Notes under the pieces: model-generated | Seen by the model: only the letters and a program-made list of their open reading frames with translations | Database searches by the model: none | What the model was told of the DNA's origin: nothing | Part shown: in pieces, positions 31,198-50,473 of the stretch | Position numbering within the stretch: position 1 is the first letter of the stretch | How the letters are laid out: every line of letters starts with the position of its first letter | NCBI RefSeq assembly: GCF_029210495.1 | Contig: NZ_JARGDK010000001.1 | Coordinates: forward strand, 1 to 64,000 | DNA: 64,000 nt | Direction of reading: 5' to 3' | From: Pseudothioclava nitratireducens | GTDB taxonomy: Bacteria; Pseudomonadota; Alphaproteobacteria; Rhodobacterales; Rhodobacteraceae | Position numbers and translations under genes: made by a program

Positions 31198-31211
31198 TTG
31201 ACCAAAGTCAA
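31198..31211. promoter_or_regulatory. NNR/FNR box before nirS
   Basis: TTGAC-CAAA-GTCAA is a perfect inverted repeat 62 bases upstream of the nirS ATG. It matches the site for NNR/Dnr-type regulators and is the strongest candidate for NO-dependent control of nirS. Confidence 0.85.
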
Positions 31212-32735: not shown

Positions 32736-32799
32736 GGCGAGTCGCCCCCCGTCACGGTTCTGTGAACCTACCATCAACCGCTCCGAAAAGGAGAGCGCA

Positions 32800-33255
32800 A
32801 TGCGCGAAGTCATGACCAAGAGCATGGCCCGAAATATTTTTTATGGCGGGTCACTGTTCTTCATCATCATCTTTGTGGGCCTGTCTGCCCACAGCCACCT
32901 GCATATCGTCAACAACGCGACAAATGCCGAGACGCTGACCGACTCGGTCCGCGCGGGCAAACGCGTCTGGGAAGAGAAAGCCTGCATCAACTGCCACACG
33001 ATCATGGGGGAAGGCGCCTACTTCGCGCCCGAACTGATGAACGTCATGAGCCGCTGGGGCATCGAACAGGGCGACCATGAAGGCGCCAAGGACACGCTTC
33101 AGGCGTGGATGGACGCGATGCCCACGGGCATCGAAGGTCGTCGCCAGATGCCGGCCTTCCACCTCTCGGACGAAGAATATCAGAACCTCGCCGACTTCCT
33201 GCTCTGGGTCGACTCGATCGACGCGCAGGACTGGCCGCCGAATGACGCCGGCTAA
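32800..33255 (+). CDS. norC: Nitric oxide reductase small subunit NorC
   Basis: Membrane-anchored monoheme cytochrome c that passes electrons to NorB for reduction of NO to N2O. The 151-residue product has one N-terminal membrane helix (NIFYGGSLFFIIIFVGLSA) and CINCH at 62-66. The ATG at 32800 has a strong AAAAGGAG site. First gene of norCBQDEF. Confidence 0.97.
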   Translation: MREVMTKSMARNIFYGGSLFFIIIFVGLSAHSHLHIVNNATNAETLTDSVRAGKRVWEEKACINCHTIMGEGAYFAPELMNVMSRWGIEQGDHEGAKDTLQAWMDAMPTGIEGRRQMPAFHLSDEEYQNLADFLLWVDSIDAQDWPPNDAG

Positions 33256-33276
33256 GCGCGGGAAGGAGACACGGAT

Positions 33277-34635
33277 ATGAAATACCAATCCCAGAAAGTC
33301 GCCCTTATCTACATGCTGACAGCGCTCGCGCTGTTTGCCGTGCAGGTGACCATGGGGCTCGTGATCGGCTGGATCTATGTCGATCCCAACTTCCTCTCGG
33401 AGCTTCTGCCGTTCAACATCGCGCGGATGCTGCATACCAACTCGCTCGTGGTCTGGCTGATCACCGGCTTCTTCGGCGCGGCCTACTTCCTCGTCCCGGA
33501 AGAGGCGGAGCGCGAACTTCACTCGGTCAAGCTGGCCTATATCCAGCTCGCGATCCTCGTGCTTGGCACGGCGGGCGTGGTCGTGACCTATCTCTTCAAC
33601 CTGTTTGAAGGGAACTTCCTGCTCGGCAAGGAGGGGCGCGAGTTCCTCGAACAGCCGCTCTGGGTCAAGGCAGGCATCGTCGTTGCGGCGCTGATCTTCC
33701 TGTTCAACATCACGATGACGGTGCTCAAGGGCCGCAAGACGGCAATCACGAACATCCTGCTGCTCGGCCTCTGGGGTCTGGCGCTGCTGTTCCTGTTCGC
33801 CTTCTACAACCCGGGCAACCTCGCACTCGACAAGCAATACTGGTGGTATGTCGTCCACCTCTGGGTTGAAGGCGTGTGGGAGCTCATCATGGCTTCGATC
33901 CTCGCCTACCTGATGCTGAAACTGACCGGCGTCGACCGCGAGATCGTCGAGAAATGGCTCTATGTGATCGTCGCGGCTGCCCTGTTCTCGGGCATCCTCG
34001 GGACCGGCCACCACTACTACTGGATCGGTACGCCCGGTTACTGGCAGTGGATCGGCTCGATCTTCTCGTCGCTCGAAGTGATCCCGTTCTTCGCGATGAT
34101 GGCCTTTGCCTTCGTCATGGTCTGGAAAGGCCGCCGCGATCACCCGAACAAGGCCGCGCTGCTGTGGTCGCTCGGCTGTGCCACGCTGGCCTTCTTCGGC
34201 GCGGGCGTCTGGGGCTTCCTGCACACGCTGCACGGTGTGAACTACTACACCCACGGCACGCAGATCACCGCCGCACACGGGCACCTCGCCTTCTTCGGGG
34301 CCTATGTGGCGCTGAACCTCGCGATCATGTCCTACGCGATGCCGATCCTGAAGGGCCGCGATCCCTACAACCAGGTGCTCAACATGGCCTCGTTCTGGCT
34401 GATGTCGGGCGGCATGGTGTTCATGACCTTCACGCTGACCTTCGCGGGCACGGTGCAAACCCACCTGCAACGCGTGATGGGCGAGTACTTCATGGACGTG
34501 CAGGAACAGCTCTGGGTCTTCTACGTCATGCGCTTCGGCTCTGGCGTGGCGGTGGTGCTGGGTTGCCTGCTCTTCATCTACGCGCTGCTCGCACCGCGTA
34601 AGGAGATCATCGCCCAAGGCGTTGCCGCGGAATAA
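33277..34635 (+). CDS. norB: Nitric oxide reductase large subunit NorB
   Basis: Catalytic subunit of cytochrome c-dependent NO reductase, with heme b and a heme b3/non-heme iron centre. The 452-residue product has 12 membrane helices and the expected His ligands in LHTNSLVVWL, VHLWVEGVWE, GTGHHYYWIG and AAHGHLAFFGAY. It lacks the long N-terminal extension of quinol-dependent qNor, in agreement with the separate norC. 21 bases after norC. Confidence 0.98.
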   Translation: MKYQSQKVALIYMLTALALFAVQVTMGLVIGWIYVDPNFLSELLPFNIARMLHTNSLVVWLITGFFGAAYFLVPEEAERELHSVKLAYIQLAILVLGTAGVVVTYLFNLFEGNFLLGKEGREFLEQPLWVKAGIVVAALIFLFNITMTVLKGRKTAITNILLLGLWGLALLFLFAFYNPGNLALDKQYWWYVVHLWVEGVWELIMASILAYLMLKLTGVDREIVEKWLYVIVAAALFSGILGTGHHYYWIGTPGYWQWIGSIFSSLEVIPFFAMMAFAFVMVWKGRRDHPNKAALLWSLGCATLAFFGAGVWGFLHTLHGVNYYTHGTQITAAHGHLAFFGAYVALNLAIMSYAMPILKGRDPYNQVLNMASFWLMSGGMVFMTFTLTFAGTVQTHLQRVMGEYFMDVQEQLWVFYVMRFGSGVAVVLGCLLFIYALLAPRKEIIAQGVAAE

Positions 34636-34660
34636 CGCAACCTGACCAACACAGGACATC

Positions 34661-35476
34661 ATGGAAATGAACGCGCAAAACACGAAACTGGAGGGGGCGG
34701 CGAAAGCCCCCTTCTACCTCCCCCAAGGCGACGAGTGCGACATCTTCGCAGCCGCCTATCAGAATTCCCTGCCCGTGCTCCTGAAGGGGCCGACGGGCTG
34801 CGGCAAGACCCGCTTCGTGGCGCATATGGCCGCGACGCTCGGGCGCCCGCTCTACACGGTCGCCTGCCATGACGACCTCTCGGCGGCAGACCTGATCGGG
34901 CGCTACCTGCTCAAGGGCGGCGAGACCGTCTGGGTCGACGGCCCACTGACGCGGGCGGTGCGCGAGGGCGCAATCTGCTATCTCGACGAGGTGGTCGAGG
35001 CCCGCAAGGACGTGACCGTCGTGCTGCACCCGCTGACCGACGACCGGCGCATTCTGCCGATCGACCGCACCGGCGAAGAACTCGAGGCGGCACCGGGCTT
35101 CATGCTCGTCGCCTCCTACAACCCGGGCTATCAGAATATCCTCAAGACGCTCAAACCCTCCACCCGGCAGCGGTTCGTCTCGATGGAATTCGACTTCCCC
35201 GCCCCCGAACACGAAATTCCCGTCGTGGCCCGCGAATCCGGGCTCGATGAGGAACGTGTGAAACCGCTGGTGCGTCTGGCCAACAAGCTGCGCGCACTCA
35301 AGGGGCAGGATCTTGAGGAAGGGGTCTCAACCCGCCTCGTGGTTTACGCGGCCACACTGATCGCACAGGGCATGTCCCACGACCGCGCGATCACCGCCGC
35401 GATGATCGAACCGCTCAGCGATGATGCGGATGTGAAACGCGGGCTCCGCGATCTTGTAACGGCCATTTTCGGGTGA
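34661..35476 (+). CDS. norQ: NorQ, MoxR-type AAA ATPase
   Basis: ATPase of the CbbQ/NirQ/NorQ family that acts with NorD to activate NO reductase, probably by inserting the non-heme iron. The 271-residue product has Walker A GPTGCGKT, a Walker B/sensor region with CYLDEVVEARKDVTVVLHPL, and the ASYNPGYQ segment. Overlaps the norD start. Confidence 0.95.
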   Translation: MEMNAQNTKLEGAAKAPFYLPQGDECDIFAAAYQNSLPVLLKGPTGCGKTRFVAHMAATLGRPLYTVACHDDLSAADLIGRYLLKGGETVWVDGPLTRAVREGAICYLDEVVEARKDVTVVLHPLTDDRRILPIDRTGEELEAAPGFMLVASYNPGYQNILKTLKPSTRQRFVSMEFDFPAPEHEIPVVARESGLDEERVKPLVRLANKLRALKGQDLEEGVSTRLVVYAATLIAQGMSHDRAITAAMIEPLSDDADVKRGLRDLVTAIFG

Positions 35477-37428
35477 GGCAGGCCGTGTCCAGGATCGACT
35501 TCGAGCCATGGGAACCCGAAGAAAGTGTCGGGAAACTGTGGCACGCAATTGCCAGCCGTTTTGACGCCCCAGAGGCGTATGACGGAGCCCGTGTCGGCCT
35601 CTCCGAGGTCGGCGGACGGCTGGCAGTCCTATTCCGCGCCCTTGGGGGCGCATCCTCGGTCGAAATGAAACCCGTCGCAGAAGAGGTCAGCCGTCACCGG
35701 CTGTCCTTCCTGCGTCGGCTCGGCACCGAGGCAGAGGCGATCCCCCGCGCCTCGTTCGACGGCGCGGCCCTGCGCCTTCCGGCAAGCCTCGCGCTGTTCC
35801 CCGCGCGCGAGGCCAATGCCGCCGCCTATATCTGGATCGCGGCGATCGCCGCACATGCCCCCGAGACGCAGGAGCGTCCCGAGGACGCGTTGCAGGCCGA
35901 TCTGCAACAGCTGGCCGCCGCAAACCGGATGGTCCGCGATACGCTGGCCGATGCGCCCGGTTTCCGCGCGCTTTATGCCGATCTGTGCGCGGCGACACTG
36001 GCGACCCGCCCCACCCCGTCCCTGCCCGCGACCGAGGCCGCGCTCGAAGCGCTGATCCGCGCAGAATTGGGCGACCCCGCCCCCCTGCCCGACGAGGCCC
36101 GCGCCATGCGTGAGATGCTGATCTCGGGGGATATTTCCGCCGCCCGCGCCCCGCGCGGTTATCAACCCTTCCGCCCGGTCGCGCTCTGGCCCGATTTGCG
36201 CGTGGCCGGGAGTTCCGCCCATACCGAGGTCGAGACCCGCGCCACTGAAGGCACGCCCGAAGAGGGCGAAGGCAACACCATGCACCGCGCCAAGCGGCGC
36301 AAGGCCGATCAGATCGAGCGCAAGGACAGCTTCATCCTGCACAAGTTCGAAGCGATCCTAAGCTGGGCCGAGTTCATCAACCTCAACCGCCGTGTCGAGG
36401 ATGACGACCCAGACAGTGCCAAGAAAGCCGCTGACGATCAGGATGAGATCGGGTTGGGCCAGATCTCCAAGGCGCCCGCCACGCGGCTCAAGCTGCATCT
36501 TGACCTTGCCCCCGAGGATGTCGACCGCGAGGCCGTTGCGGGCAAGTTCACCTATCCCGAATGGGATGTGCGCACCGGCGCCTACATGCCCGCGCATTGC
36601 TGCGTTCTGGCCTCCGATGTCGAGCCGGGCGACGGCATTCCCGATTTCCGTGCCGACCCGCGCGCCACCCGCCGCATCCGCGCCGTCAAACGTCAGTTCG
36701 AGGCGCTGAGGCCGGGTCGGGTTTCGACCACCGGGCATCTCGATGGCGACGAGCTGGACATGGAGGCGACCGTGCGCGCCGCCTGCGATCTGCGCGCCAC
36801 CGGCGAGGGCCGCGAACGTATCTGGCGCCAGACCCGCCCGCTCAAACGCGATCTGGCGGTGTCGATCCTGCTCGATGTCTCGCGCTCGACGGAAAGCGCG
36901 GTCTCGGGTCGCGCGGTGATCGAGGTCGAGCACGAAGCACTGGCCGCGCTCGCATGGGGGCTGGATGCCTGCGGCGATGATTTCGCCATCAACGCCTTCT
37001 CTTCCCTCAAACGAAACCGCGTCTACTTCATGAACTGCAAACGGTTCGGCGAGCCGATGGGGCCGAGCGTGGAGTCGCGCATCGCAGAGCTGCGCCCCGG
37101 CTTCTACACCCGGCTTGGCGCCGCGATCCGCCATGCCTCGGCCGATCTGGCCGAGCAGACGCGCAAGCGGCGGCTGCTGCTGGTCATCACCGACGGCAAG
37201 CCCAACGATCTCGACCATTACGAGGGCCGCCACGGCATCGAGGACTCGCGCATGGCGGTACTCGAGGCCCGCCGCGCGGGACATGCGGTCTTTGGCATCA
37301 CCATCGACCGCGAGGGCAAGGCGTGGTTCCCGCGCATCTTCGGGCGGGGAGGCTTTGCGCTGATCCCGCATCCCGATCACCTCACTGCGGCCTTGCCCGA
37401 GATCTACCGGCAACTGGTGGGGGCATGA
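35473..37428 (+). CDS. norD: NorD, von Willebrand factor A-domain protein
   Basis: Partner of NorQ in NO reductase maturation. The 651-residue product starts with GTG at 35473, overlapping the norQ stop; a second GTG at 35485 is in frame. The C-terminal third is a VWA domain with an intact metal site: DVSRSTES (DxSxS), a Thr region near FYTRLGAAIRHAS, and LLLVITDGKPNDLDHYEG. The N-terminal part is specific to NorD. Confidence 0.95.
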   Translation: MRQAVSRIDFEPWEPEESVGKLWHAIASRFDAPEAYDGARVGLSEVGGRLAVLFRALGGASSVEMKPVAEEVSRHRLSFLRRLGTEAEAIPRASFDGAALRLPASLALFPAREANAAAYIWIAAIAAHAPETQERPEDALQADLQQLAAANRMVRDTLADAPGFRALYADLCAATLATRPTPSLPATEAALEALIRAELGDPAPLPDEARAMREMLISGDISAARAPRGYQPFRPVALWPDLRVAGSSAHTEVETRATEGTPEEGEGNTMHRAKRRKADQIERKDSFILHKFEAILSWAEFINLNRRVEDDDPDSAKKAADDQDEIGLGQISKAPATRLKLHLDLAPEDVDREAVAGKFTYPEWDVRTGAYMPAHCCVLASDVEPGDGIPDFRADPRATRRIRAVKRQFEALRPGRVSTTGHLDGDELDMEATVRAACDLRATGEGRERIWRQTRPLKRDLAVSILLDVSRSTESAVSGRAVIEVEHEALAALAWGLDACGDDFAINAFSSLKRNRVYFMNCKRFGEPMGPSVESRIAELRPGFYTRLGAAIRHASADLAEQTRKRRLLLVITDGKPNDLDHYEGRHGIEDSRMAVLEARRAGHAVFGITIDREGKAWFPRIFGRGGFALIPHPDHLTAALPEIYRQLVGA

Positions 37429-38003
37429 GCGAGCATCTCCCCGAACTGATCGCCCCCGAACCGCCGAGCGTGCTCGACGAGTTGCCGGGTGATCTGATGA
37501 TGTGGGTGTTGATCGTTTCCGAGCTTCTGGTCTTTGGAGCGGGGCTTGCGGCGTTCCTCGGCGCGCGCATCTTCGACCCCGAGGGCTTTGCCGCGGCACA
37601 GGACGCGCTGCACCGCACCGGCGCGGGGATCAACACGCTGGTGCTGGTCACTTCGGGCTTTTTCGCGGCGCTTGGCGTGCGCATGGCCGAGGCCGGGCGC
37701 AAGGCGGCGACGCGCGGCTGGCTGGCAGCGGCCTCGGCGCTTGGCGTGGTGTTCCTGATCGTGAAATTCGTCGAATACGCCGACAAGGCCCGCCATGGGA
37801 TCGGCATCGAAACGCATCCGTTTTATACGTTCTACTACCTTCTGACCGGCTTTCACGCGGCCCATGTGGTCGCCGGGATCGTCATCCTCGGGCTGGTCTC
37901 GATCCGCTGCGTGCCGCGCACGGTCGAAGTCGGCGCGGCCTTCTGGCATATGGTCGATCTGGTCTGGGTGCTGCTGTTCCCCGTCATCTATTTGCTGAGG
38001 TGA
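37425..38003 (+). CDS. norE: NorE, cytochrome oxidase subunit III-like protein
   Basis: A 192-residue membrane protein of the cytochrome c oxidase subunit III family, with five membrane helices. It is not a subunit of the purified NO reductase but is encoded with it and improves activity in other denitrifiers. The ATG at 37425 overlaps the norD stop; the longer upstream frame is not used. Confidence 0.93.
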   Translation: MSEHLPELIAPEPPSVLDELPGDLMMWVLIVSELLVFGAGLAAFLGARIFDPEGFAAAQDALHRTGAGINTLVLVTSGFFAALGVRMAEAGRKAATRGWLAAASALGVVFLIVKFVEYADKARHGIGIETHPFYTFYYLLTGFHAAHVVAGIVILGLVSIRCVPRTVEVGAAFWHMVDLVWVLLFPVIYLLR

Positions 38004-38007
38004 ACCA

Positions 38008-38289
38008 ATGACCGCAGCTCTCCGCGACCCGCTGATCTCTGCATGGCTCTGGCTGCTCGCCCTGTCGGGCGCATCCACGCTGCTGGCGGCGGCTGTGTCG
38101 CAAGGCTGGCTGACGGGGCTGGGCGTCACACTTGGCGGGGCAGCAATCCTCGCGCTGGCATGGGCCAAGGCACGGGTCATCCTCGCACGTTATCTGGGCC
38201 TTGCCGAAGCCCCATTCTGGCATCGCGGCTTTTCGATCACGCTGGCGATCTATGCGCTGCTGTTGCTTGGGCTTTACCTGATCGGCTAG
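38008..38289 (+). CDS. norF: NorF, small membrane protein
   Basis: A 93-residue membrane protein of the prokaryotic cytochrome oxidase subunit IV-like family with about three helices. Last gene of norCBQDEF, four bases after norE. Together with NorE it affects NO reductase activity in Paracoccus; its precise role is unknown. Convergent with the regulator gene, only four bases apart. Confidence 0.88.
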   Translation: MTAALRDPLISAWLWLLALSGASTLLAAAVSQGWLTGLGVTLGGAAILALAWAKARVILARYLGLAEAPFWHRGFSITLAIYALLLLGLYLIG

Positions 38290-38293
38290 GGGC

Positions 38294-38998
38294 TCAGCCC
38301 TTCGACCACGCCATTGCCGGGTCTTCCTCGGCATAGTTGCGCAGCGATTGCACATCCTCGATCACAGCGTGGTTCTGTTTCACGCGCACGCCCTGATCGC
38401 GCAGCTTGGCGAAGGCGCGGCTGAGGCTCTCGGGTTTCATCCCCAACCGCCCCGCGATCAGCACCTTGTCATAGGGCAGCGTGACATCGATCGAACCTTC
38501 GGCCTCCTCGGGCACATGCTCAAGCAGGAACTCTGCCACCCGTTGCGCCCCGGTCTGCGCCTTGAGCTGTTCGATCTGCGCCACCAGCCGGTGCAAGTGC
38601 GCGAAGGTCGCGGACAGAAGCGAGAGCGCGAATTCCGGCTTGTCGCGCAGCAGGCGCAGGATGGTATCGGTCTCGATCCGGATCAGACGGCAGTCGGTCG
38701 CACATTCCGCCGAGACCGGATAGGCATCGTGGGTAAACGCCACCGCCTCACCGAAACTGTGGCCGCGGGTAAAGACCCCCACCACCGCCTCGGCCCCGTT
38801 CGGCGCGATCCGGTAAAGCTTGATCCAGCCCTCGACCACGATATAGACGGCCGCCGCGCGCTCGCCCTGAAGAAACACGGTCGCACCGCGCTCCATCTCG
38901 CGCACGCGGGCATGTTCGAGAATGGCCTTGGCGGCATCGTCGGGCAACCCGGCCAACAGCAGGGATTTGCGAGCAACGTGATAATGATCCGCGGGCAT
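38294..38998 (-). CDS. dnr: Crp/Fnr-type regulator, Dnr/NNR-like
   Basis: A 234-residue activator likely to control the whole island. It has an N-terminal cyclic-nucleotide-type sensor domain (RGATVFLQGERAAAVYIVVE, GHSFGEAVAF), a long dimer helix, and a winged helix with recognition segment GMKPESLSRAFAKL. The E-SR recognition residues are those of FNR, which bind TTGAT/C half-sites. The N-terminal cysteine cluster of FNR is missing, so it should not carry a 4Fe-4S cluster and probably senses NO through heme like Dnr/NNR. The ATG at 38998 follows a GGAAGAGG site. Confidence 0.88.
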   Translation of the reverse strand: MPADHYHVARKSLLLAGLPDDAAKAILEHARVREMERGATVFLQGERAAAVYIVVEGWIKLYRIAPNGAEAVVGVFTRGHSFGEAVAFTHDAYPVSAECATDCRLIRIETDTILRLLRDKPEFALSLLSATFAHLHRLVAQIEQLKAQTGAQRVAEFLLEHVPEEAEGSIDVTLPYDKVLIAGRLGMKPESLSRAFAKLRDQGVRVKQNHAVIEDVQSLRNYAEEDPAMAWSKG

Positions 38999-39107
38999 CG
39001 GCACCTCTTCCGGACGGTCAGATCCTTTGTTGGAATTTTGACCAGTCAGCCAACAGTTCTAGTGCTTTCCGCCCCAGATGCAATCACCGACGCCGCGGCA
39101 TATTCGA

Positions 39108-39121
39108 TTGAGTTAAGTCAA
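39108..39121. promoter_or_regulatory. NNR/FNR box between the regulator and ubiE
   Basis: TTGAG-TTAA-GTCAA lies 57 bases upstream of ubiE and 109 bases upstream of the regulator. Its distance fits activation of ubiE-menA; autoregulation of the regulator is also possible. Confidence 0.75.
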
Positions 39122-39178
39122 GGCTGTCAAAACGATGCCCGTGCTAGCGAAAATCGGGGAGCAACCGGAGAAGATGCG

Positions 39179-39931
39179 ATGACGCGTGCGAATAACCTTG
39201 ATGCGATGCGCACCAGTTTCGGCACCGAACAGGTGACGATGGAAGAGCGCCGCAAGCTGGTCACCGAGCTGTTCGACCGGATCGCGCCGCGCTATGACCT
39301 GATGAACGACCTGATGAGCTTTGGCCTGCACCGGCTGTGGAAAGCCAAGATGGTGCGGCGCACGATGGCGGTTCTGGTCGGGCATGACGGGCCGCTGGTC
39401 GATCTTGCCGGCGGCACCGGAGATATCGCGCTGGCGGTCAAGGCCGCCGATCCCGCGCGACCGGTCATCGTTGCCGACGCCTCGGCGGGGATGCTTGCGC
39501 AGGCGCAGGCGCGGGGCGGAGACCGGCTGAGCTATATGCACAGCCCCGCCGAAGACCTGCCTTTCGAGAATGGGTCGGCGGCGGGCATCACACTTGCTTT
39601 CGGATTGCGCAACATGACCGATCCGGGCTGCGCGCTCCACGAGGCGGCGCGGGTGCTTGCCCCCGGCGCGGCGCTGGTGCTTCTGGAATTCTCCGACCCG
39701 GACCGCTGGTTCGCGCCCCTTTACGCGATCCATGCGCGCTATGTGATCCCTGCGCTTGGCACATTGGTCGCCCGCGATACCCGTGCTTACCGCTATCTGG
39801 TCGAGTCGATCGAGAAATTCCCCAACCGGGAAGATATTGCCCGCGAGCTTGAAGCGGCAGGTCTGCGCGTCACCGAGGAGCGCAGCTTCATGTTCGGCAT
39901 CGCGCGGCTCCATGTGGCGGTGAAGCCATGA
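39179..39931 (+). CDS. ubiE: UbiE/MenG-type quinone methyltransferase
   Basis: SAM-dependent methyltransferase that methylates the ring of demethylmenaquinone and/or a ubiquinone precursor. The 250-residue product has the family marks FDRIAPRYDLMNDLMSFGLH, DLAGGTGDIALAV (SAM site), SPAEDLPFENGSA and FGLRNMTD. The ATG at 39179 is in frame and follows CCGGAGAAG. Its stop overlaps the menA start, and an NNR box lies 57 bases upstream. The direct partnership with menA suggests that it acts as MenG. Whether a second, housekeeping ubiE exists elsewhere in the genome cannot be seen. Confidence 0.93.
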   Translation: MTRANNLDAMRTSFGTEQVTMEERRKLVTELFDRIAPRYDLMNDLMSFGLHRLWKAKMVRRTMAVLVGHDGPLVDLAGGTGDIALAVKAADPARPVIVADASAGMLAQAQARGGDRLSYMHSPAEDLPFENGSAAGITLAFGLRNMTDPGCALHEAARVLAPGAALVLLEFSDPDRWFAPLYAIHARYVIPALGTLVARDTRAYRYLVESIEKFPNREDIARELEAAGLRVTEERSFMFGIARLHVAVKP

Positions 39932-40836
39932 CACAGGCGGCGGCGCACTCTGCCAATGCCGCGGCGCGGGAGCGCCTGTCGCGGCTGCCGCGCCCTGCCC
40001 TGTGGGCGATCGCGGCGCGGCTCAAGACGGTCAGCCTGTCGCTGACGCCGGTTCTGGCGGGCACATGGTGGGCGGCGCAGGCGGGTCTCTGGCGCGCCGA
40101 TGTCGCGCTCGTGGCGATGATCTCGGCCAGCGCGATCCAGATCGGCACGAATTTGTGGAACGATGCCGCCGATGCCGAACGTGGCGTGGACCGGGCCGAT
40201 CGGCTCGGCCCGCCGCGACTGACCTCACTGGGGCTGCTCGGGGCGGGCGAAGTGCGGCGTGCTGCGCTTGCCGCGTTCGGGGTGGCCGCGCTGGCGGGGC
40301 TATATCTGAGCGCAATCGGCGGCTGGCCGATCATCGGGATCGGGTTGGTTTCACTCGCGCTTGGCTATCTCTATTCGATGGGACCACGCCCGATGTCGGG
40401 CCAGCCTTTTGGCGAAGTGCTTGTGATCGCCTTCTTCGGATTGGTCGCGGTGTCGGGCACGGCATGGCTGCAAGGGGCGGCACCCCTGTCACCGGCGCTT
40501 TTGGCGCTTGGGCTGATGATCGGGCTTCCGGCGGCCGCGGTGCTCATGCTCAACAATCATCGTGACCGGGTGCAGGATGCGCGGGCGGGCCGGCGCACGC
40601 TGGCCATCGTCATCGGAGAGACCGGCGCGCGCGTTTTCTATTTCGCGGCACTTCTGGCGGCGCTTGGCCTGGCCGGGATGATCGCACCCAGCCCTTGGCT
40701 GACCGGCCCCGCCATCCTCGCACTTTGGCTCGGCCACGCGATGTGGCACTGGCCGGTCTCGGCGCGGCTCAATGCGCTTCTGGGGCAGACGGCGCTCTAC
40801 CAGTTTCTGCTCTTGCTGGCCGTCACCTTGGGCTGA
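39928..40836 (+). CDS. menA: MenA-type DHNA polyprenyltransferase
   Basis: Membrane prenyltransferase of the UbiA superfamily, MenA subgroup, which attaches a polyprenyl chain to 1,4-dihydroxy-2-naphthoate in menaquinone synthesis. The 302-residue product has about eight membrane helices. The first Asp motif reads NLWNDAADAERGVDRADRLG followed by PPR, and the second reads NNHRDRVQDARAGRRTL; both match MenA rather than UbiA. Translationally coupled to ubiE. No genes for DHNA synthesis are in the window, and Rhodobacterales usually have ubiquinone only, so its substrate here needs confirmation. Confidence 0.85.
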   Translation: MTQAAAHSANAAARERLSRLPRPALWAIAARLKTVSLSLTPVLAGTWWAAQAGLWRADVALVAMISASAIQIGTNLWNDAADAERGVDRADRLGPPRLTSLGLLGAGEVRRAALAAFGVAALAGLYLSAIGGWPIIGIGLVSLALGYLYSMGPRPMSGQPFGEVLVIAFFGLVAVSGTAWLQGAAPLSPALLALGLMIGLPAAAVLMLNNHRDRVQDARAGRRTLAIVIGETGARVFYFAALLAALGLAGMIAPSPWLTGPAILALWLGHAMWHWPVSARLNALLGQTALYQFLLLLAVTLG

Positions 40837-40898: not shown

Positions 40899-41354
40899 TC
40901 AGTTCATCGCGCCCGCGCCTTTGACCGGCAGGGAGAGCTCCACTTCTCCGGCCTGCTCAAAGACAAGCGTTACATCGACATTGGTGCCTTCCTGCATCGG
41001 CTCGACGAGATCGATGAACATCAGATGCAGACTGCCCGGTTTGAGGACGGCCTCACCCCCGGCGGGGATGTCGATGGCTTCGACCTGACGCATCCGCATC
41101 ATGCCGTTCTCGTTGATATGGGTGTGCAACTCGGGCGTGTTGCAGGCGGAGGACCGGAACGCCACAAGCCGGTCCGCCGGACCCTTCGAGCGGATCGTCA
41201 TGAAACCGGCGCCCGCCCCCGCCACCATGGGCGAGGCGCGGGTAAACCCACCGCTGATCTCCAACGTGTCGGTCACAGCCTCCTGCGCCGCCGCGGGCAG
41301 GGTCATAAGAACAGTCATCGCGATGGCACCGAAAAACGCGGAACGCCGTTTCAT
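40899..41354 (-). CDS. pcuC: Periplasmic copper chaperone PCu(A)C
   Basis: A 151-residue periplasmic chaperone that delivers Cu(I), in other bacteria to the CuA centre of cytochrome oxidase. It has a signal peptide and the family copper site: His77/His79, a Met-rich stretch at 85-88, and the HxM motif at His110-Met112. Divergent from nosZ, with a shared NNR box, so the likely target here is the CuA centre of NosZ (inference). The ATG at 41354 begins the signal peptide. Confidence 0.9.
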   Translation of the reverse strand: MKRRSAFFGAIAMTVLMTLPAAAQEAVTDTLEISGGFTRASPMVAGAGAGFMTIRSKGPADRLVAFRSSACNTPELHTHINENGMMRMRQVEAIDIPAGGEAVLKPGSLHLMFIDLVEPMQEGTNVDVTLVFEQAGEVELSLPVKGAGAMN

Positions 41355-41420
41355 CTGTTTGTCTCCAGGCAGAACTCTATTCACTGTTTTCTCTTTTCAG
41401 CGATTTGGCACATCTCAGCC

Positions 41421-41541: not shown

Positions 41542-43833
41542 ATGGTTAAGTCCATTCACAAGCGCCTGTTGGCGACGACGGGAATCGTCGCTATGGGCAT
41601 CGCGATGAGCGCATCGGCCGAGACGCTGGATGAAGTCATGGCGCGTCGCGGCCTGTCCCAACAGGACCTGGTCGCCGCAGCGAAAACCTACACGCCGACG
41701 GGCGGTCGTGACGAATTCATCGTCTTCTCCTCGGGCGGGCAGTCGGGCCAGATCATGGTCTACGGCGTCCCCTCGATGCGGATTCTGAAATATGTCTCCG
41801 TCTTCACCCCCGAGCCGTGGCAAGGCTATGGCTTCGACGAAGAATCGAAAGCGATTCTCGAACAGGGCAAGGTCGACGGGCGCGAGTTGCACTGGGGGGA
41901 TACCCACCACCCGGCCATCACCGAAACCAACGGTGATCTGGACGGCGAATACCTGTTCATCAACGATAAATCCGCGCCGCGCGTGGGCGTGATCTCGCTG
42001 CATGACTTCGAGACGCAGCAGATCGTCGTGAACCCGATCCTGCAATCCGAACACGGCGGCACCTTTGTCACGCCGAACTCGGAATATGTGATCGAGGCAG
42101 CGCAATATCCGGGCGTTCTGGGCCGTGGCTATGCGCCGCTGTCGCAGTTCAACGAGAAATTCCGCGGGGCCGTCACCTACTGGAAGTTCAACCGCGAAAA
42201 AGGCCGCATCGAGCCCGAGAACTCCTTCTCGATCGAACTGCCGCCCTACAGCCAGGACTTGTCGGACGCGGGTAAACTCGTGTCGGATGGCTGGTCGTTC
42301 ACCAACTCCTTCTGTGCCGAGCGTTACGTTGGCGGGATCGAGTCGGGCCGTCCGCCCTTCGAGGCCGGCTGCTCGCAAAACGACACCGACTATCTGCACA
42401 TCATCAACTGGAAAAAGGCCGAAGAGGTCTACAAGGCCGGCAAGGTCACCATGATCAATGACCACCCGGTCATCTCCATGGAAACCGCGATTGCCGAAGG
42501 TCTCGTGCATCTCGTGGCCGAGCCGAAATCGCCGCACGGCGTCGACGTGTCGCCCGATGGCAAATTCATCGTGGTCGGCGGCAAGCTCGACACCCAGGCT
42601 TCGGTTTACTCGTTCGAGAAAATCCAGAAGGCGATCGAAGAGAAGAAATTCTCGGGCGAAGATCCCTACGGCATTCCGGTCATCGCGATGGAAGACGCGC
42701 TGCACACGCAAGTGCCGCTCGGCCTCGGTCCGCTGCACAACCAGTTCGACAGCAAACCCTGCGTTGTCTACACCTCGCTCTACGTGGACAGCCAAGTGGC
42801 GAAATGGGACTATTGCGAAGGCAAGGTGCTCGACAAGGTTTCGATCCACTACAATATCGGCCACCTCGTGGCGATGGAGGGCGAATCCGTCAACCCGGCA
42901 GGTAAATACCTGATCTCGCTCAACAAGCTGGCAATCGACCGGTTCAACCCGGTGGGTCCGCTGCACCCGCAGAACCACCAGCTGATCGATATCTCTGGCG
43001 ACAAGATGGAGCTTCTCTACGACATGCCGGTGCCGCTGGGCGAACCCCACTACGCCACCGCCATCTCGGCCGAGAAACTCAAGCCGCTGGTCCGTTACAA
43101 ATACGGCACCAACTCGCGCACCGGTGAACGCCACGAAGGCGCGGTGCGTCCGGGCCAGGAGCGCATCGAGCGCGACGGCACCAACGTCAAGGTCTACATG
43201 ACCGCGATCCGGTCGCACTTCACCCCGGAAATCGTGGAAGTGAACGAAGGCGATACCGTCGAGTTCATCATCACCAACTCCGAGCGTGCGCAGGACGAAA
43301 CCCACGGCTTCTCGATTTCGACCTATGACGTGAACCTCTCGCTGGAACCCGGCAAGACGGCGACCGCCAAGATCGTGGCCGACAAGCCCGGCGCCTTCTC
43401 GTTCTACTGCACCGAGTTCTGCTCGGCGCTGCACCTCGAGATGACCGGCTACCTCATGGTCAAGCCGAAAGGCTATGTCGATGAGGCCTCGGGCGAAGTG
43501 GCCGAGGGCCAAGCCTACAGCAAGGAAGATTACGACAAGCAGACCGCGAACAACGTGGCCACGCAAGAAGTGATCGACTCTGTGGTCGTCTACATCACCG
43601 AGCGCAACTATGCGGACTTCCCGGAAGTCGTGGCGCTGGTTGAGGACGCGACCGACCAGCTCAACTTCGCCGCCGAAGCCAAGGCCAAGGCCGAGGAAGC
43701 TGCGGGCAAGGAAGACTGGCAGAACGCGACGCTCTGGGCCGGCCAGTGGTGGCAGTATCAGGTGAAAGCCGCCGATATCGGCCTGCGCGCCAAGACCTTC
43801 CTCGACGAGCATGGCGCTGTGAAAGCGCAATGA
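41542..43833 (+). CDS. nosZ: Nitrous oxide reductase, clade II (atypical) type
   Basis: Reduces N2O to N2 with a tetranuclear CuZ centre and a binuclear CuA centre. The 763-residue product begins with a Sec-type signal (VKSIHKRLLATTGIVAMGIA, then SASAE) and lacks the twin-arginine motif of clade I NosZ. The CuZ segment reads GDTHHPAITETNGDLDG (His122, His123), the form I associate with clade II; clade I has DCHHP. The CuA motif CTEFCSALHLEM starts at residue 623. About 130 residues follow it, with no heme motif. First gene of the nos operon. Confidence 0.96.
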   Translation: MVKSIHKRLLATTGIVAMGIAMSASAETLDEVMARRGLSQQDLVAAAKTYTPTGGRDEFIVFSSGGQSGQIMVYGVPSMRILKYVSVFTPEPWQGYGFDEESKAILEQGKVDGRELHWGDTHHPAITETNGDLDGEYLFINDKSAPRVGVISLHDFETQQIVVNPILQSEHGGTFVTPNSEYVIEAAQYPGVLGRGYAPLSQFNEKFRGAVTYWKFNREKGRIEPENSFSIELPPYSQDLSDAGKLVSDGWSFTNSFCAERYVGGIESGRPPFEAGCSQNDTDYLHIINWKKAEEVYKAGKVTMINDHPVISMETAIAEGLVHLVAEPKSPHGVDVSPDGKFIVVGGKLDTQASVYSFEKIQKAIEEKKFSGEDPYGIPVIAMEDALHTQVPLGLGPLHNQFDSKPCVVYTSLYVDSQVAKWDYCEGKVLDKVSIHYNIGHLVAMEGESVNPAGKYLISLNKLAIDRFNPVGPLHPQNHQLIDISGDKMELLYDMPVPLGEPHYATAISAEKLKPLVRYKYGTNSRTGERHEGAVRPGQERIERDGTNVKVYMTAIRSHFTPEIVEVNEGDTVEFIITNSERAQDETHGFSISTYDVNLSLEPGKTATAKIVADKPGAFSFYCTEFCSALHLEMTGYLMVKPKGYVDEASGEVAEGQAYSKEDYDKQTANNVATQEVIDSVVVYITERNYADFPEVVALVEDATDQLNFAAEAKAKAEEAAGKEDWQNATLWAGQWWQYQVKAADIGLRAKTFLDEHGAVKAQ

Positions 43834-43868: not shown

Positions 43869-43910
43869 CCCCATCCGCAACACATGCAAACATTCGCAAG
43901 GAAACGCCTT

Positions 43911-44561
43911 ATGCGCCCGATCCTCCAAAGCCTGTTCGCCGCCGCTCTGGCGCTGACCGCGCTCCCCGCGATGGCCGATGACATCGCTGACGGCAAAAAG
44001 ATCTACATGACCAAATCCTGCATGGCCTGCCACGGCATGAAGGGCGCAAAGCCCGTGCTGAGCTATCCGATGCTTGCAGGCCAGAACGAGAAATACCTGC
44101 TGACCCAGATGAAAGACATCAAGGCCGGCAAGCGGGTCGGCACGATCGACCCGGCCAACAATGCCCCTTATGTGCAGGGCATGATCGACGTGATGCATCT
44201 CGTCGATGAGAGCGAGTTGAAGAAGGTTGCGAAATACCTCGCCTCGCTGCCGCCCGGCAAACCCAAACCCGTCGATCCGCCGCATGATCCGGCGCTGATC
44301 GCGGCTGGTGAAGAAGCCTACAAAAGCCTTGGCTGCAAATCCTGCCACGGCAACGAAGGCTCCAAGCCAACCACCAAGACCTATCCCTATCTCGCCGGGC
44401 TGAACGCGGAATATCTCGCCCGGGCAATGACCGAGATGCGCGAGAAGGTGCGCGTCAACGGCCAGTCTAAACTGATGTTCGGGACGATCAAGAAAGCCTC
44501 GGACGAAGACATCACCGCGATCGCCGCATGGCTGTCGCAAATCGACCGCTCCGCTGAGTGA
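43911..44561 (+). CDS. Diheme cytochrome c of the nos operon
   Basis: A 216-residue periplasmic diheme cytochrome resembling cytochrome c4, with a signal peptide (SLFAAALALTALPAMA), CMACH at 37-41 and CKSCH at 142-146. Clade II nos operons commonly encode such cytochromes to carry electrons to NosZ. The ATG at 43911 follows AAGGAAA. Located between nosZ and a second, unrelated diheme cytochrome. Confidence 0.9.
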   Translation: MRPILQSLFAAALALTALPAMADDIADGKKIYMTKSCMACHGMKGAKPVLSYPMLAGQNEKYLLTQMKDIKAGKRVGTIDPANNAPYVQGMIDVMHLVDESELKKVAKYLASLPPGKPKPVDPPHDPALIAAGEEAYKSLGCKSCHGNEGSKPTTKTYPYLAGLNAEYLARAMTEMREKVRVNGQSKLMFGTIKKASDEDITAIAAWLSQIDRSAE

Positions 44562-44577: not shown

Positions 44578-45291
44578 ATGAAAACCCATCTTCTTTCCGC
44601 CGCCCTCATCGCACTGGCCCTGCCGGCCTTTGCACAGGAAGGCACTGTCGACACCTCGTCCTGGAACCAGGGCGGGGGCGAGCAGGACGAAGCGCTCCAC
44701 CTGACCCCGGACCATGAGAACGGGATCGAGGTCTATGAGGTCTGCTCGGCCTGTCACCAACTGAACGGCTGGGGTCTCGATGACGGCACCTTCCCGCAGA
44801 TCGCGGGGCAGCATTACACTGTCATCATCAAGCAGCTTGCCGACATCCGCGCGCTGAACCGCGACAACCCGACGATGTATCCGTTCGCGCTGCCCTCGGA
44901 AATCGGCGGCTCGCAGTCGATCGCGGACGTGGCCGAGTATATCTCCAACCTGCCGATGAACCCGAATAACGGCGTCGGCGCGGGCGATGACCTCGAGCAC
45001 GGCGCGCAGCTTTATAAAGACAACTGCGTGCGCTGCCACGGCGAAAACGGCGAAGGTGACAACGACAAGTTCTATCCGCGCATCCACGGCCAGCACTACA
45101 ACTACCTCGTGCGCCAGTATCAGTGGATCAAGGAAGGCAAACGCCGCAACGCGAACCCGGACATGGTCCAGCAGATTCAGACCTTTACCGAGCGCGATAC
45201 GCTCGCGGTGCTCGACTACGTGTCGCGGCTGAAACCGCCGGCGGAAATGGTCGCTGACCCCGATTGGGTCAACCCCGACTACGACTGGTAA
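44578..45291 (+). CDS. Second diheme cytochrome c of the nos operon
   Basis: A 237-residue periplasmic cytochrome with a signal peptide, CSACH at 56-60 and CVRCH at 150-154, each in a class I type domain. The repeated pattern FPQIAGQHYTVIIKQLADIR / YPRIHGQHYNYLVRQYQWIK shows that it is an internal duplication. 16 bases after the first diheme cytochrome. Likely electron donor to NosZ or link from NosGH (inference). Confidence 0.9.
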   Translation: MKTHLLSAALIALALPAFAQEGTVDTSSWNQGGGEQDEALHLTPDHENGIEVYEVCSACHQLNGWGLDDGTFPQIAGQHYTVIIKQLADIRALNRDNPTMYPFALPSEIGGSQSIADVAEYISNLPMNPNNGVGAGDDLEHGAQLYKDNCVRCHGENGEGDNDKFYPRIHGQHYNYLVRQYQWIKEGKRRNANPDMVQQIQTFTERDTLAVLDYVSRLKPPAEMVADPDWVNPDYDW

Positions 45292-45328: not shown

Positions 45329-45356
45329 ACTGAACATAAGCCAAAGGACCTCACCC

Positions 45357-46538
45357 ATGGCCAAGGCCGCTTCTGACAAGCGCGGGATCGTTTTCCGCGT
45401 CCTGACCTTCATATCCGTCTGCCTGATCGCCGCATCCTTCTTCAGCCCCGGCTGGTGGGTGTCGCTGACCGCGCCCAACTACCCCGAGGCAACCTTCCCG
45501 CAGGGGATCAAGATCCTGTTCCACATGGACTCGGTGCGCAATGGCTGCACGATCCGCACCAGCGAAGAGGTCGAAGAGAACGAGGCGCTCGATTGCGTCC
45601 ACGAGATGGACACGATCAACCACTATGTCGGCATGTATCCGATCGCTTCGGGCGGACCGGTCGAGAAAGCCTTCTCGCCATTCCTGTTCGCCATGATGGG
45701 GGTGATGCTTCTGGCCTTTGCCGCCCCTGGGCGCAGCGCCCGGATCGGCGTTTCGGTTCTGGGCTATGGCGCGATCGCGGTCTGGATGTGGATGGCGATC
45801 TACGGGCAGAACGGGATCTCCAAGCACACGACCGGCTATCTTGAGGGGCTTGTGGTCTCGCTTGGGCAGGACAGTTCCGAGACGGTGGACGACTCGAACC
45901 TCTCTCCCATCGTCAAGATGTTGCGTGACAGCCTCGCCGAGAGTGAGAAAGAAGAACAGGTCACGGTGGCCGCAACCGGCGACAAACAGGCGCTGATCGA
46001 CAACCTGCGCGCCAATTTCAACATCGACCAGAACAAGCTGCCCGCCGCCGAGCAGGAAGAGTGGACCGGCTCGGTAATGCAGGTCTTCAAATGGCACTAT
46101 GCGAAATCGCTGGCGCGCTGGTTCAACGAACCCGAACGCAATGATCCCTTGGTGGCGACGATGTCCTCGGTCGCGCAGATCCTGTTCGTCGTGATCCTCG
46201 CCTTCATGGCGCTGATGATCTTTGCCGCCTTCTCGGCACGCTCGGTCTTTTACTGGCTGCTGGTGCTGGTGCCGATGGCACTGCCGGTCGGGTTCCTCGC
46301 GGAATATGCCGGTTGGCTGTGGTGGTATGGGCACTCGCTCAACGAGATGGGCGCGTTCACACTCAAACCGTTCATGCCGACGGTGTTCGGGGACGGCAAG
46401 GTGGCGCAGTTCACCACGCATTCCTACCCGTCCATCGGCTTTGGCCTGATGATCGCCTCCTCGGCGCTCCTGCTGCTCGCCGCGCTGATCCGCTTCAAGC
46501 AGATCCGCCTCGCGGGTGATGACGCCGCACGCATGTGA
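45357..46538 (+). CDS. nosB: NosB-like membrane protein
   Basis: A 393-residue polytopic membrane protein with an N-terminal helix (VFRVLTFISVCLIAASFF), a periplasmic loop with two Cys residues (Cys62 in NGCTIR and a second in ALDCVHEMD), and further helices after about residue 95 and in the C-terminal third. Its position directly before nosD and its membrane pattern match NosB, a protein of unknown function found only in clade II nos operons. The ATG at 45357 follows an AAAGGA site. The name rests on context and general resemblance. Confidence 0.75.
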   Translation: MAKAASDKRGIVFRVLTFISVCLIAASFFSPGWWVSLTAPNYPEATFPQGIKILFHMDSVRNGCTIRTSEEVEENEALDCVHEMDTINHYVGMYPIASGGPVEKAFSPFLFAMMGVMLLAFAAPGRSARIGVSVLGYGAIAVWMWMAIYGQNGISKHTTGYLEGLVVSLGQDSSETVDDSNLSPIVKMLRDSLAESEKEEQVTVAATGDKQALIDNLRANFNIDQNKLPAAEQEEWTGSVMQVFKWHYAKSLARWFNEPERNDPLVATMSSVAQILFVVILAFMALMIFAAFSARSVFYWLLVLVPMALPVGFLAEYAGWLWWYGHSLNEMGAFTLKPFMPTVFGDGKVAQFTTHSYPSIGFGLMIASSALLLLAALIRFKQIRLAGDDAARM

Positions 46539-46546
46539 GAGCCGCC

Positions 46547-47839
46547 ATGATCCGCCGTGCCGCCCTTGTGATTGCCGCCTGCGCCGCCCTGCTTCCGGGG
46601 CTGGCGCAAGCGGGCGCGCTTCAGGACATGATCGACGCCGCCCCCGATGGCGCCGAGATCGTGCTGCCTGCGGGTGTCCATGAAGGGCCCATCGTCATCA
46701 CCCATCCGGTGGTGATCGACGGACAGGGCGCGGCGGTGATCGACGGCGGCGGCACGGGCACCGTGGTCACAATCGAGACCAATGGGGTCACACTCAAGAA
46801 CCTGACGATCCGCAACTCGGGTCGTCTGCACAACAAGGTGGATGCCGGGCTGCGCATCCATGGCAGCTTCAACGTCATCCGCGACGTGCGCATCGAGAAT
46901 TCGCTGTTCGGCATGGACCTGACGCAGGCCTCGAACAACGTGCTGCGGCGCAACTATATCAGCTCCAAGGACATGCCGCTGGAAATGCGCGGCGACTCGG
47001 TGCGGATCTGGTATTCGAACGACAATATTTTCGAACAGAACCATATCGAGCATTCGCGCGATTTCGTGATCTGGTATTCCGAGGGCAACAAGATCCGTGA
47101 CAACCGTATCCAGCACGGGCGCTATGGCATCCATTTCATGTATGCCCACGAGAATTTCGTCGAGGATAACGAGATCTCGGACTGCGTGGTCGGCATTTTC
47201 CTGATGTATGCCAACGATATCCGGGTGACCGGCAACCAGATCCTGCGCGCCTGGGGCGCGAGCGGCATGGGGGTTGGCTTCAAGGAAACTTCGGGCGCCG
47301 TGGTCGAGGATAATAAAATCCTCGGGAACGCCATCGGCATCTATCTCGATCCCTCGCCCTGGGACCCGGACAAGACGAACGAATTTCACCGCAACCACAT
47401 CGCCTATAACGGCGTGGGGGTCGAGTTCCACACCGACTGGGTGGGCAATAACTTCTCGCAGAACAACTTCCGCTCGAACTTCACCCAGGTTTCGGTGCGT
47501 GGGCGTGGCACGGCGCTGCGCGAGGGCTGGCACGGCAATCACTGGGACGACTTCGCGGGTTTTGACCGCGATGGCGACGGCATCGGCGACAGCCCCTATG
47601 AGGTCTATAACTATGCCGACCGGCTCTGGATGGACCTGCCGCCGGCACAGTTCTTCCGGGGCGGCATCGCGCTCTCGGCGCTCGATTTCGTCGAGCGTCT
47701 GGCGCCCTTCACCGAGCCCCGCCTGCTCGTGCGCGAGGCCGCCCCGGTGGTCGAGCCGATCGAGCACGCCGCCGCTGTGGCCCCCACCGCCACGCAATCC
47801 GACAGACCCAAAACCGCACTGGAGATGCTGACGCAATGA
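46547..47839 (+). CDS. nosD: NosD copper-centre assembly protein
   Basis: Periplasmic beta-helix protein needed to build the CuZ centre of NosZ, working with the NosFY ABC transporter. The 430-residue product has a signal peptide (ending LLPGLAQAG), right-handed beta-helix repeats (N-x-I-x-x-N patterns), and the NosD segments YGIHFMYAHENFVEDN and GIFLMYANDIRVTGN. The ATG at 46547 begins the signal peptide; a GTG at 46535 is an alternative. Confidence 0.95.
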   Translation: MIRRAALVIAACAALLPGLAQAGALQDMIDAAPDGAEIVLPAGVHEGPIVITHPVVIDGQGAAVIDGGGTGTVVTIETNGVTLKNLTIRNSGRLHNKVDAGLRIHGSFNVIRDVRIENSLFGMDLTQASNNVLRRNYISSKDMPLEMRGDSVRIWYSNDNIFEQNHIEHSRDFVIWYSEGNKIRDNRIQHGRYGIHFMYAHENFVEDNEISDCVVGIFLMYANDIRVTGNQILRAWGASGMGVGFKETSGAVVEDNKILGNAIGIYLDPSPWDPDKTNEFHRNHIAYNGVGVEFHTDWVGNNFSQNNFRSNFTQVSVRGRGTALREGWHGNHWDDFAGFDRDGDGIGDSPYEVYNYADRLWMDLPPAQFFRGGIALSALDFVERLAPFTEPRLLVREAAPVVEPIEHAAAVAPTATQSDRPKTALEMLTQ

Positions 47840-48624
47840 CCCAGTCCGACACCCCAAAACCGGCCCCCGTGCCCGCCCCCAAGAAGCAGCGCCTGACCCG
47901 GCGCGAGCTGGAGCGACGGCGCATCCTGCTGCGCTCTGTGGGCGCGGGCGCCGCCGCCATCGCCGCCGGGCTGATCGGCTGGTATCCGGTGCGCGAGCGC
48001 ATCTTCGACCGGCTCCGCCCACCCGGCGCACTGGACGAGGACGCCTTCCTCGCCGCCTGCATCAAATGCGGGCAATGCGTGCAGGTCTGCCCGGTTGAGG
48101 CGATCAAGCTGGCCGATGGCGACGAGGGCTACGGCCTCGGCGTGCCCTATATCGACGCGCGCGCGCAGGCCTGCGATTTTTCCTGCGACGCGGTGCAATG
48201 CGTGCTGGCCTGTCCTACGGGCGCGCTCAGCCATGAGATCGCGCATAAGGAAGAGGTCACGATGGGCTTTGCCCGGCTTGCCCGGCCCGATAGCTGTCTG
48301 GCGGTCAAGGGTGAGGGCTTTACCGGCCTTGCGCGCGGTTACGACTTCGAGGGCCTGCTGCGTTACGAGGAAATCGACCGCTGGGAGCCGCAACCCGTCG
48401 CCTCCTATTCCTACGATCTGGAGCTGTGCGACCTGTGCATGCGCGAATGCCCGATCGAAGGGGCGATCACGCTGGAACCGATCTCGGCCGATGCGGATGA
48501 CCCGCGCCGGATGCCGACGATCCATAAATCCTGCGTCGGCTGCGGCACCTGCGAGATGATGTGCCCGACCGAACCCGCCTCGATCGTGATCGACACCGAA
48601 CTCAAGCTGGGGGACATCGCATGA
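47836..48624 (+). CDS. nosG: NosG ferredoxin-type protein
   Basis: NapG-like four-cluster ferredoxin encoded in clade II nos operons. The 262-residue product has a twin-arginine-like N-terminus (RRRILLRSVGAGAAAIAAG) and clusters CIKCGQCVQVCP, CDFSCDAVQCVLACP, CDLCMRECP and CVGCGTCEMMCP. With NosH it is expected to transfer electrons from the quinol pool toward NosZ, replacing NosR. Overlaps nosD and nosH by four bases each. Confidence 0.9.
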   Translation: MTQSDTPKPAPVPAPKKQRLTRRELERRRILLRSVGAGAAAIAAGLIGWYPVRERIFDRLRPPGALDEDAFLAACIKCGQCVQVCPVEAIKLADGDEGYGLGVPYIDARAQACDFSCDAVQCVLACPTGALSHEIAHKEEVTMGFARLARPDSCLAVKGEGFTGLARGYDFEGLLRYEEIDRWEPQPVASYSYDLELCDLCMRECPIEGAITLEPISADADDPRRMPTIHKSCVGCGTCEMMCPTEPASIVIDTELKLGDIA

Positions 48625-50470: not shown

Positions 50471-50473
50471 CCC

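Follow-up and report, generated by a model that had tools for sequence, protein, structure and literature searches.

A ubiE-menA pair and an SBF-family transporter gene at a clade II nos cluster: a candidate precursor-salvage module for a menaquinone-type quinone in Pseudothioclava nitratireducens

Pseudothioclava nitratireducens belongs to a host group that is normally described as ubiquinone-type, and the presence in its genome of a ubiE-menA pair of the menaquinone type raises the question of where the aromatic precursor would come from and what the quinone would serve. The pair lies in the 64,000-nucleotide stretch of DNA that was analysed as a whole (the window), which holds a denitrification island with nap- and nir-type genes further upstream, followed by nor, ubiE-menA, and nos. 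A preliminary description of this DNA had suggested that the island may bring its own low-potential quinone, or modify another aromatic acceptor. We propose that ubiE-menA and an SBF/BASS-family transporter gene probably make up a module that salvages the precursor of a menaquinone-type quinone for use in N-oxide respiration, chiefly in the reduction of nitrous oxide (N2O) of the clade II kind. The feature is real and conserved; the corrected reading adds to it the menA-linked transporter, which had been overlooked and may be the missing piece. A more specific version is put forward tentatively, with slightly more doubt than belief: that the SBF protein is a dedicated importer of 1,4-dihydroxy-2-naphthoate (DHNA) or an equivalent naphthoate, that some clade II N2O reducers use a quinone ring supplied by neighbours, and that SBF-menA replaces DHNA synthesis in several proteobacterial lineages. 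The source genome (3.0 Mb, 44 contigs) is estimated to be 100% complete, and the nearest named relatives by this menA gene are Rhodobacteraceae/Rhodobacterales records. The argument turns on the following features of the window.

39108-39121, plus strand: FNR/NNR-type box TTGAGTTAAGTCAA, a perfect TTGA-N6-TCAA, 57 bases before the ubiE ATG.
39179-39931, plus strand: ubiE/menG-type C-methyltransferase gene, 250 amino acids; TIGR01934, 221.6 bits against a cut-off of 158.4.
39928-40836, plus strand: menA-type 1,4-dihydroxy-2-naphthoate polyprenyltransferase gene, 302 amino acids; TIGR00751, 134.6 bits against a cut-off of 102.2.
53130-53143, plus strand: FNR-type box with one mismatch, TTGACTTTGGTCAG, 55 bases upstream of the SBF gene.
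53199-54065, plus strand: SBF/BASS-family sodium:organic-anion transporter gene, 288 amino acids; PF01758, 88.4 bits against a gathering threshold of 24.3.

The two enzymes of the pair were assigned to their families by curated models, and the ubiE stop codon and the menA start codon overlap as ATGA. The coupled pair of the preliminary description therefore stands, although its order is ubiE then menA and not menA-ubiE. Both Asp-rich motifs claimed for MenA are present (N78-D79-x2-D82-x3-G86-x-D88-x3-R92-x-G94-P95 and N209-N210-x-R212-D213-x3-D217), the gene order places the pair between nor and nos as described, and the NNR-like box reported 57 bases upstream proved to be a perfect one. The island UbiE does not reach the cut-off of the equivalog model NF001242 (222 against 351), nor does MenA reach that of the narrower model NF004751 (209 against 264). 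The genome has another UbiE (G000:C40:235725), which is 41% identical to the island UbiE. A methyl-plastoquinone route was rejected, with the MpqE model at 158 against a cut-off of 335 for the island UbiE, as was a 4-hydroxybenzoate polyprenyltransferase identity, with no such model among the matches of the MenA-like open reading frame (ORF).

Can the host supply DHNA itself? The preliminary description had called for a search for menFDHCEB or futalosine-pathway genes; of these, MqnA/MqnD, MenB, and MenD were sought and not found in the genome, MenC, MenE, MenF, and MenH were not searched, and control genomes scored over the cut-off in every search that was made. MqnA/MqnD (PF02621) had no match in any of the nine menA-bearing family genomes, this one included. 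MenB (TIGR01929) and MenD (TIGR00173) were over their cut-offs in none of these nine genomes, and MenD in none of a 61-genome set. The best MenB-like match (141.7 bits against a cut-off of 342.7), which adjoins the canonical ubiE on C40, was interpreted as a paralogue of the enoyl-CoA hydratase type, and the MenD-like matches (58 bits against a cut-off of 244) as thiamine-diphosphate enzymes of other kinds. Neither a complete Men pathway (MenD with MenB) nor a futalosine pathway (MqnA/MqnD) was found, and the genome resembles the partial pathway of Streptococcus agalactiae in that menA is kept without any of the genes searched. With neither known DHNA route found, the island is therefore not expected to make menaquinone alone by a known pathway, and the idea that it brings a quinone of its own needs correcting on this point.

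The SBF gene lies past nosY, a thioredoxin-like gene (named by reading), and a SCO1 gene, and ends the nos cluster. Its product falls below the cut-offs of the bass (118 against 326) and PanS (52 against 400) models. The residues Q46, S83, N84, S97, T101, E230, and Q234 are invariant in 10 aligned SBF proteins and align with the structure 3zuy, which we take to be ASBT of Neisseria meningitidis, at Q77, S114, N115, S128, T132, E260, and Q264, presumably the sodium ligands. The invariance of the residues at these ASBT sodium sites makes a working sodium-coupled anion transporter likely. Judged by sequence and linkage, the protein may be an importer of DHNA or a close analogue.

The linkage recurs. 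The SBF gene ends the nos cluster in all 5 family genomes with clade II nosZ, and beyond these nos-end cases it stands beside menA in 7 more genomes from four lineages (genomes and loci are given G and L numbers). It is directly beside menA in G217, G376, and G265, forms an apparent ubiE-menA-SBF operon in the alphaproteobacterium G860, and is oriented divergently to menA in G870, G876, and G779, all three from another class of the same phylum; at locus L038, SBF is upstream of ubiE-menA. By contrast, neither SBF nor menA was present in 20 clade I nos regions (398 kb in total) from relatives that lack menA, and the difference in SBF between clade II and clade I (5/5 against 0/20) has P = 2e-5; the clade I stretches cover about 10 kb on either flank of nosZ, a little short of the 11.6 kb that separate the nosZ start from SBF in the window. 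Clade I nos clusters are shorter than clade II clusters. No SBF match at E 1e-5 was obtained in 90 loci without menA (747 kb, including these 20), the nos-end loci L112-L115 being set apart. The gene caller assumes high GC and gave few or no genes for AT-rich loci, for which a longest-ORF rule was used. Near the ubiE-menA-SBF genes of G860 (L107 13559-15964) are multihaem cytochrome c-like and cytochrome b-like genes, recognized by eye, which may point to a further anaerobic respiration connected with the module.

The acceptor of MenA was approached through an alignment of 10 reference rows (from 10 of the 11 MenD-bearing genomes) with 25 module rows, and through a tree of 41 rows from which G828 and the very long G783 row were left out. 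Forty-four positions are invariant in the references. The window MenA keeps 41 of them, including all those of the Asp motifs, and departs from them in having V instead of L at position 35, I instead of L at 138, and L instead of A at 145. At 29 of the 44 positions all 25 module MenAs are identical, and these include nearly all Asp-motif residues. Q71, N75, N78, D79, D82, R92, G94, P95, R97, Y149, N209, N210, R212, D213, D217, and T224 are the same throughout the module rows, D88 has one exception, and G86 has one gap. The tree recovers the module MenAs of alphaproteobacteria as a clade of 22 rows (support 99/99), which lies in a group of 29 rows together with the MenD-bearing alphaproteobacterium G937 and the genus of G851 (MenD-bearing), G870, and G876. 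The other 8 MenD-bearing rows make up a separate group, enterobacterial in kind by reading; the exact inner order is moderately supported, and the branch of G937 is long. From the residue signature and the tree we infer that the window protein is a DHNA-type MenA, which would prenylate DHNA. The matches in G922, G925, and G783 are probably not MenA. Among the outcomes that the preliminary description held against its quinone reading was a lack of DHNA-synthesis genes combined with a tree that places this MenA with another function; no such gene was found among those searched, whereas the tree groups the protein with DHNA-type MenAs.

The same module could nevertheless work on another substrate, with SBF importing a different hydroxy-aromatic acid that would give an undescribed low-potential prenylquinone (a benzoquinone or a substituted naphthoquinone). 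Such a reading accords with the failure to find a known DHNA route in the genome, with the diversity of SBF substrates, and with differences between the module MenAs and most MenD-bearing references at columns such as 32, 38, 77, 145, and 146. We consider it unlikely in view of the 29 unchanged positions with their Asp-motif residues. Moreover, the MenD-bearing G851 and G937 share the 29-row group with SBF-linked MenAs, as expected for an unchanged acceptor, and the G851 MenA has NLYNDAADFERGVD at the site where the window MenA has NLWNDAADAERGVD.

A possible replacement of DHNA synthesis by SBF-menA can be judged from the 30 menA-bearing genomes in which MenD was scored. MenD was over the cut-off in none of the 12 genomes whose SBF gene is linked to menA or closes the nos cluster, compared with 11 of the 18 others (Fisher P = 6e-4). 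A single proteobacterial genus, not of the Alphaproteobacteria, illustrates both arrangements: in G851, menA adjoins a menF-type gene (TIGR00543, 217 against 225, just below the cut-off) and a menD gene (TIGR00173, 359 against 244); in G870 and G876, it adjoins SBF, and MenD is not over the cut-off. No SBF in the flanks inspected and no MenD over the cut-off was found in G329, G435, G561, G835, G922, G925, and G783, of which G329 only was tested for futalosine genes. One of these, G561, is an alphaproteobacterial genome of 0.9 Mb and 32% GC that is rated complete and carries menA (L085 8260-9156) and ubiE (L110 2878-3597). It had no MenD match and no SBF in the 36 kb read, and it may be another precursor-dependent case.

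A host making DHNA by a third, unrecognized pathway, with SBF serving something else in the regulon, would account for the apparent absence of both known routes from genomes that yet keep an intact menA, often with ubiE, in considerable number. We regard this explanation as improbable, since it leaves unexplained why SBF accompanies menA or closes the nos cluster in 12 genomes yet had no match in the 747 kb of other loci, and why SBF-linked menA and MenD were not found together.

To return to the salvage module, its tie to N-oxide respiration appears in its distribution. A menA gene (E 1e-10) is present in 9 of 394 family genomes. Window-type nosZ is present in 5 of the 394 (this genome and four at 84-95% identity), the other family nosZ matches being 32-41% identical and taken as clade I. 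All 5 genomes with window-type nosZ have menA, compared with 4 of the 389 others (Fisher P = 1.6e-9, relatedness not corrected), and in all 5 ubiE-menA is next to nosZ. Among 14 loci that a scan of named genomes yielded, 10 have the order ubiE-menA-nosZ; this order was seen in Sinirhodobacter sp. WL0062, Maritimibacter sp. HL-12, Thalassobius vesicularis CC-AMW-E, and Sedimentimonas flavescens B57. In a sample of the class, menA occurs in 3 of 385 genomes and window-type nosZ (E 1e-100) in 1 of 385. A plasmid carrier was considered and rejected: matches were present in 35 of 72,556 plasmid records, all below 60% identity, the best at 44% among the matches listed. Where clade II nosZ is lacking, menA lies beside norQDEF and a Crp/Fnr gene in G376 and beside narGHJI-type genes (by reading) in G265. 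It adjoins an Rrf2 gene at L035 (by Pfam) and L032 (by reading), and the SBF and ubiE-menA genes of L038 are upstream of a Crp/Fnr-like gene.

The promoter regions point in the same direction. The window contains 3 perfect TTGA-N6-TCAA boxes against 0.34 expected, and at least 3 were obtained in 2 of 100 shuffles. Besides that of ubiE, one perfect box lies before a nirE-type gene, named by reading (26987-27000), and one before the gene for the cd1 nitrite reductase (31198-31211). Of 17 ubiE-menA loci, 9 have a perfect box in front of ubiE, compared with 0.04 expected from shuffles, at a distance of 56-64 bases in 8 loci and 103 bases in L107. Boxes with at most one mismatch lie 42-63 bases before 5 of 6 SBF genes (0.18 expected from shuffles), compared with 23 of 312 background genes (P = 1e-5). 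Outside the nos context, G376 has a perfect box 271 bases before the small ORF that precedes menA, and G217 has a one-mismatch box at 109 bases; no box was found within 300 bases upstream of menA in G265, L032, and L035. The claim that the island brings low-potential quinone chemistry retains the support of the MenA signature and tree, the clade II nos link, the FNR-type boxes, and the placement of menA by nor-, nar-, or Rrf2-type genes at some loci elsewhere. Alternatively, ubiE-menA could be a passenger that arrived when a clade II nos cluster was acquired horizontally from a donor using menaquinone, with little function in a ubiquinone host. Such a history would suit its patchy occurrence (9/394 and 3/385) and tight linkage to nosZ, but we doubt it strongly given that the genes are intact with conserved active-site residues, that FNR-type boxes recur, and that menA-SBF is kept without clade II nosZ beside nor-type (G376) and nar-type (G265) genes.

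We propose the following pathway for the salvage module. An FNR/NNR-type regulator would act at the boxes to turn on ubiE-menA and SBF at low oxygen in the presence of N-oxides. In symport with Na+, SBF would take up an aromatic carboxylate excreted into the surroundings, for which DHNA or a near analogue is the likeliest candidate. MenA would prenylate the imported acid with decarboxylation to give demethylmenaquinone, and UbiE would methylate this to menaquinone. NosGH and the two c-type cytochromes would then carry electrons from the low-potential quinol to NosZ, with ubiquinone kept for aerobic life. In menA-SBF genomes without a linked ubiE, the ordinary UbiE could carry out the methylation, as in E. 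coli, whose ubiE is reported to serve both quinones (PMC3237581).

Several points weigh against this proposal. Substrate, quinone, and expression are all deduced from sequence; SBF proteins carry many anions, a specificity that sequence cannot give, and their identity across lineages goes down to 30-35%. At fifteen of the 44 MenA positions that are invariant in the references, one or more of the 25 module MenAs differ. No box was found at ubiE in 8 of the 17 loci (L073, L074, L078, and L037-L041) even at one mismatch, and G249 has none at either ubiE or SBF. In G217, the stretch read around menA-SBF holds no N-oxide gene, and in G329 (also L036), menA has neither SBF nor N-oxide genes nearby and aromatic-metabolism-like neighbours. 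SBF salvage is no explanation for G435 and G561, in which menA has neither SBF nearby nor MenD over the cut-off. The Fisher tests ignore relatedness, and counting only the 7 directly adjacent SBF cases as linked raises P to 0.02. The flanks inspected for SBF came to 13 kb or more in total for the family genomes, G435, G561, G937, G851, and G922, and only 1.5 kb for the other 12 of the 18 genomes scored as lacking it. G870 and G876 are 90% and 82% complete, and PF02621 and MenB were not searched in G860, G870, G876, and G779.

The ubiE-menA pair is flanked upstream by norCBQDEF-type genes and a Crp/Fnr gene and downstream by a PCuAC gene and a Sec-dependent nosZ; many neighbouring genes were named by eye without a family search.

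32797-38289, plus strand: norC, norB, norQ, norD, norE, and norF; norE by PF00510, the norF-like COX4_pro match below the cut-off, the others by reading.
38294-39004, minus strand: Crp/Fnr-family regulator gene, a DNR/NNR candidate; FtrB and FixK models match below their cut-offs.
40899-41384, minus strand: PCu(A)C copper chaperone gene between menA and nosZ; PF04314.
41545-43833, plus strand: nosZ, Sec-dependent (clade II) nitrous-oxide reductase, 762 amino acids; TIGR04246, 869 against a cut-off of 625.
43890-44561 and 44578-45291, plus strand: two c-type cytochrome genes in the nosC1/nosC2 place; order conserved across loci.
45354-46538, plus strand: gene for a NosB-like membrane protein, named by position; no family match.
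46535-47839, plus strand: nosD; TIGR04247, 390 against a cut-off of 300.
47836-49598, plus strand: nosG and nosH, NapG/NapH-type quinol dehydrogenase subunits; order conserved.
49607-51870, plus strand: nosF, nosL, and nosY, named by reading, order, and homology within the loci, without a family search.

The assignment to a clade II nos cluster draws on the Sec-type NosZ together with nosB (by position only), nosG (NapG-type models below their cut-offs, 147 against 269 and 127 against 179), and nosH (TIGR02163, 238 against 213). No NCBIfam model was over its cut-off for the two c-type cytochrome genes downstream of nosZ. Further upstream, a NapC/NirT tetraheme cytochrome fused to an ethylbenzene-dehydrogenase-type domain (PF03264 and PF09459; 27519-29336, minus strand) adjoins the cd1 nitrite reductase gene. 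A DUF2478 gene lies by the nap-type cluster (12575-13102, minus strand), and one also adjoins menA in the nar-linked locus of G265 (L079 10563-11084, minus strand). By eye, a small membrane-type ORF in the nir cluster (19626-19820, minus strand) looks similar to the one that directly precedes menA in G376 (L077 8948-9202, plus strand); the G376 ORF had no Pfam match.

If the proposal is true, it names a candidate DHNA transporter and implies that alphaproteobacteria of the ubiquinone type are able to turn to a low-potential quinone obtained by salvage when they respire N2O and other N-oxides. The strength of an N2O sink would then hinge on neighbours leaking a quinone precursor, in a vitamin-like cross-feeding. 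It would also explain why such quinones could be overlooked in pure aerobic cultures, where there would be neither precursor nor induction. Titles and abstract openings, with subscription papers mostly outside the search, gave no description of menA or SBF in a nos cluster; within the same limit as to subscription papers, nothing was found on an SBF-menA linkage or on a dedicated DHNA importer of this kind.

Among known systems, Streptococcus agalactiae is a Gram-positive bacterium with aerobic cytochrome bd respiration, whereas the module described here lies in a ubiquinone-type host group, includes a ubiE along with a linked candidate importer, and is set in an N-oxide respiration island. 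The two have in common a menA gene kept while other menaquinone genes are missing and a quinone that is, or here would be, derived from a supplied precursor: S. agalactiae, whose menA is in a respiratory operon, is reported to make demethylmenaquinone (DMK-10) from supplied DHNA (PMC6030563). In Lactiplantibacillus plantarum, uptake and conversion of quinone from outside the cell are reported, by pathways that the authors describe as yet to be identified (PMC10746273). Mesorhizobium huakuii is an alphaproteobacterium reported to use ubiquinone aerobically and menaquinone microaerobically, its bacteroids containing menaquinone-7 (MK-7) at low oxygen; its dmtH encodes a demethylmenaquinone methyltransferase, for which the parts consulted describe no linked menA, importer, or denitrification cluster (PMC3237581).

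The nos cluster of Wolinella succinogenes shares with the present one a Sec-dependent NosZ, two cytochromes c, and NosB/D/G/H-like genes, and the difference here is that quinone-finishing genes and SBF bracket the cluster. Wolinella makes its own menaquinone. Electrons for its clade II N2O respiration are proposed to come from menaquinol (PMC11102522). The SBF protein belongs with ASBT (3zuy) and PanS in PF01758 and has residues aligned with what we take to be the ASBT sodium ligands; it differs from them in falling below the bass and PanS cut-offs and in being linked to menA. Partial DHNA-dependent pathways are thus already known in streptococci; what looks new is the candidate importer, together with the tie to N2O respiration.

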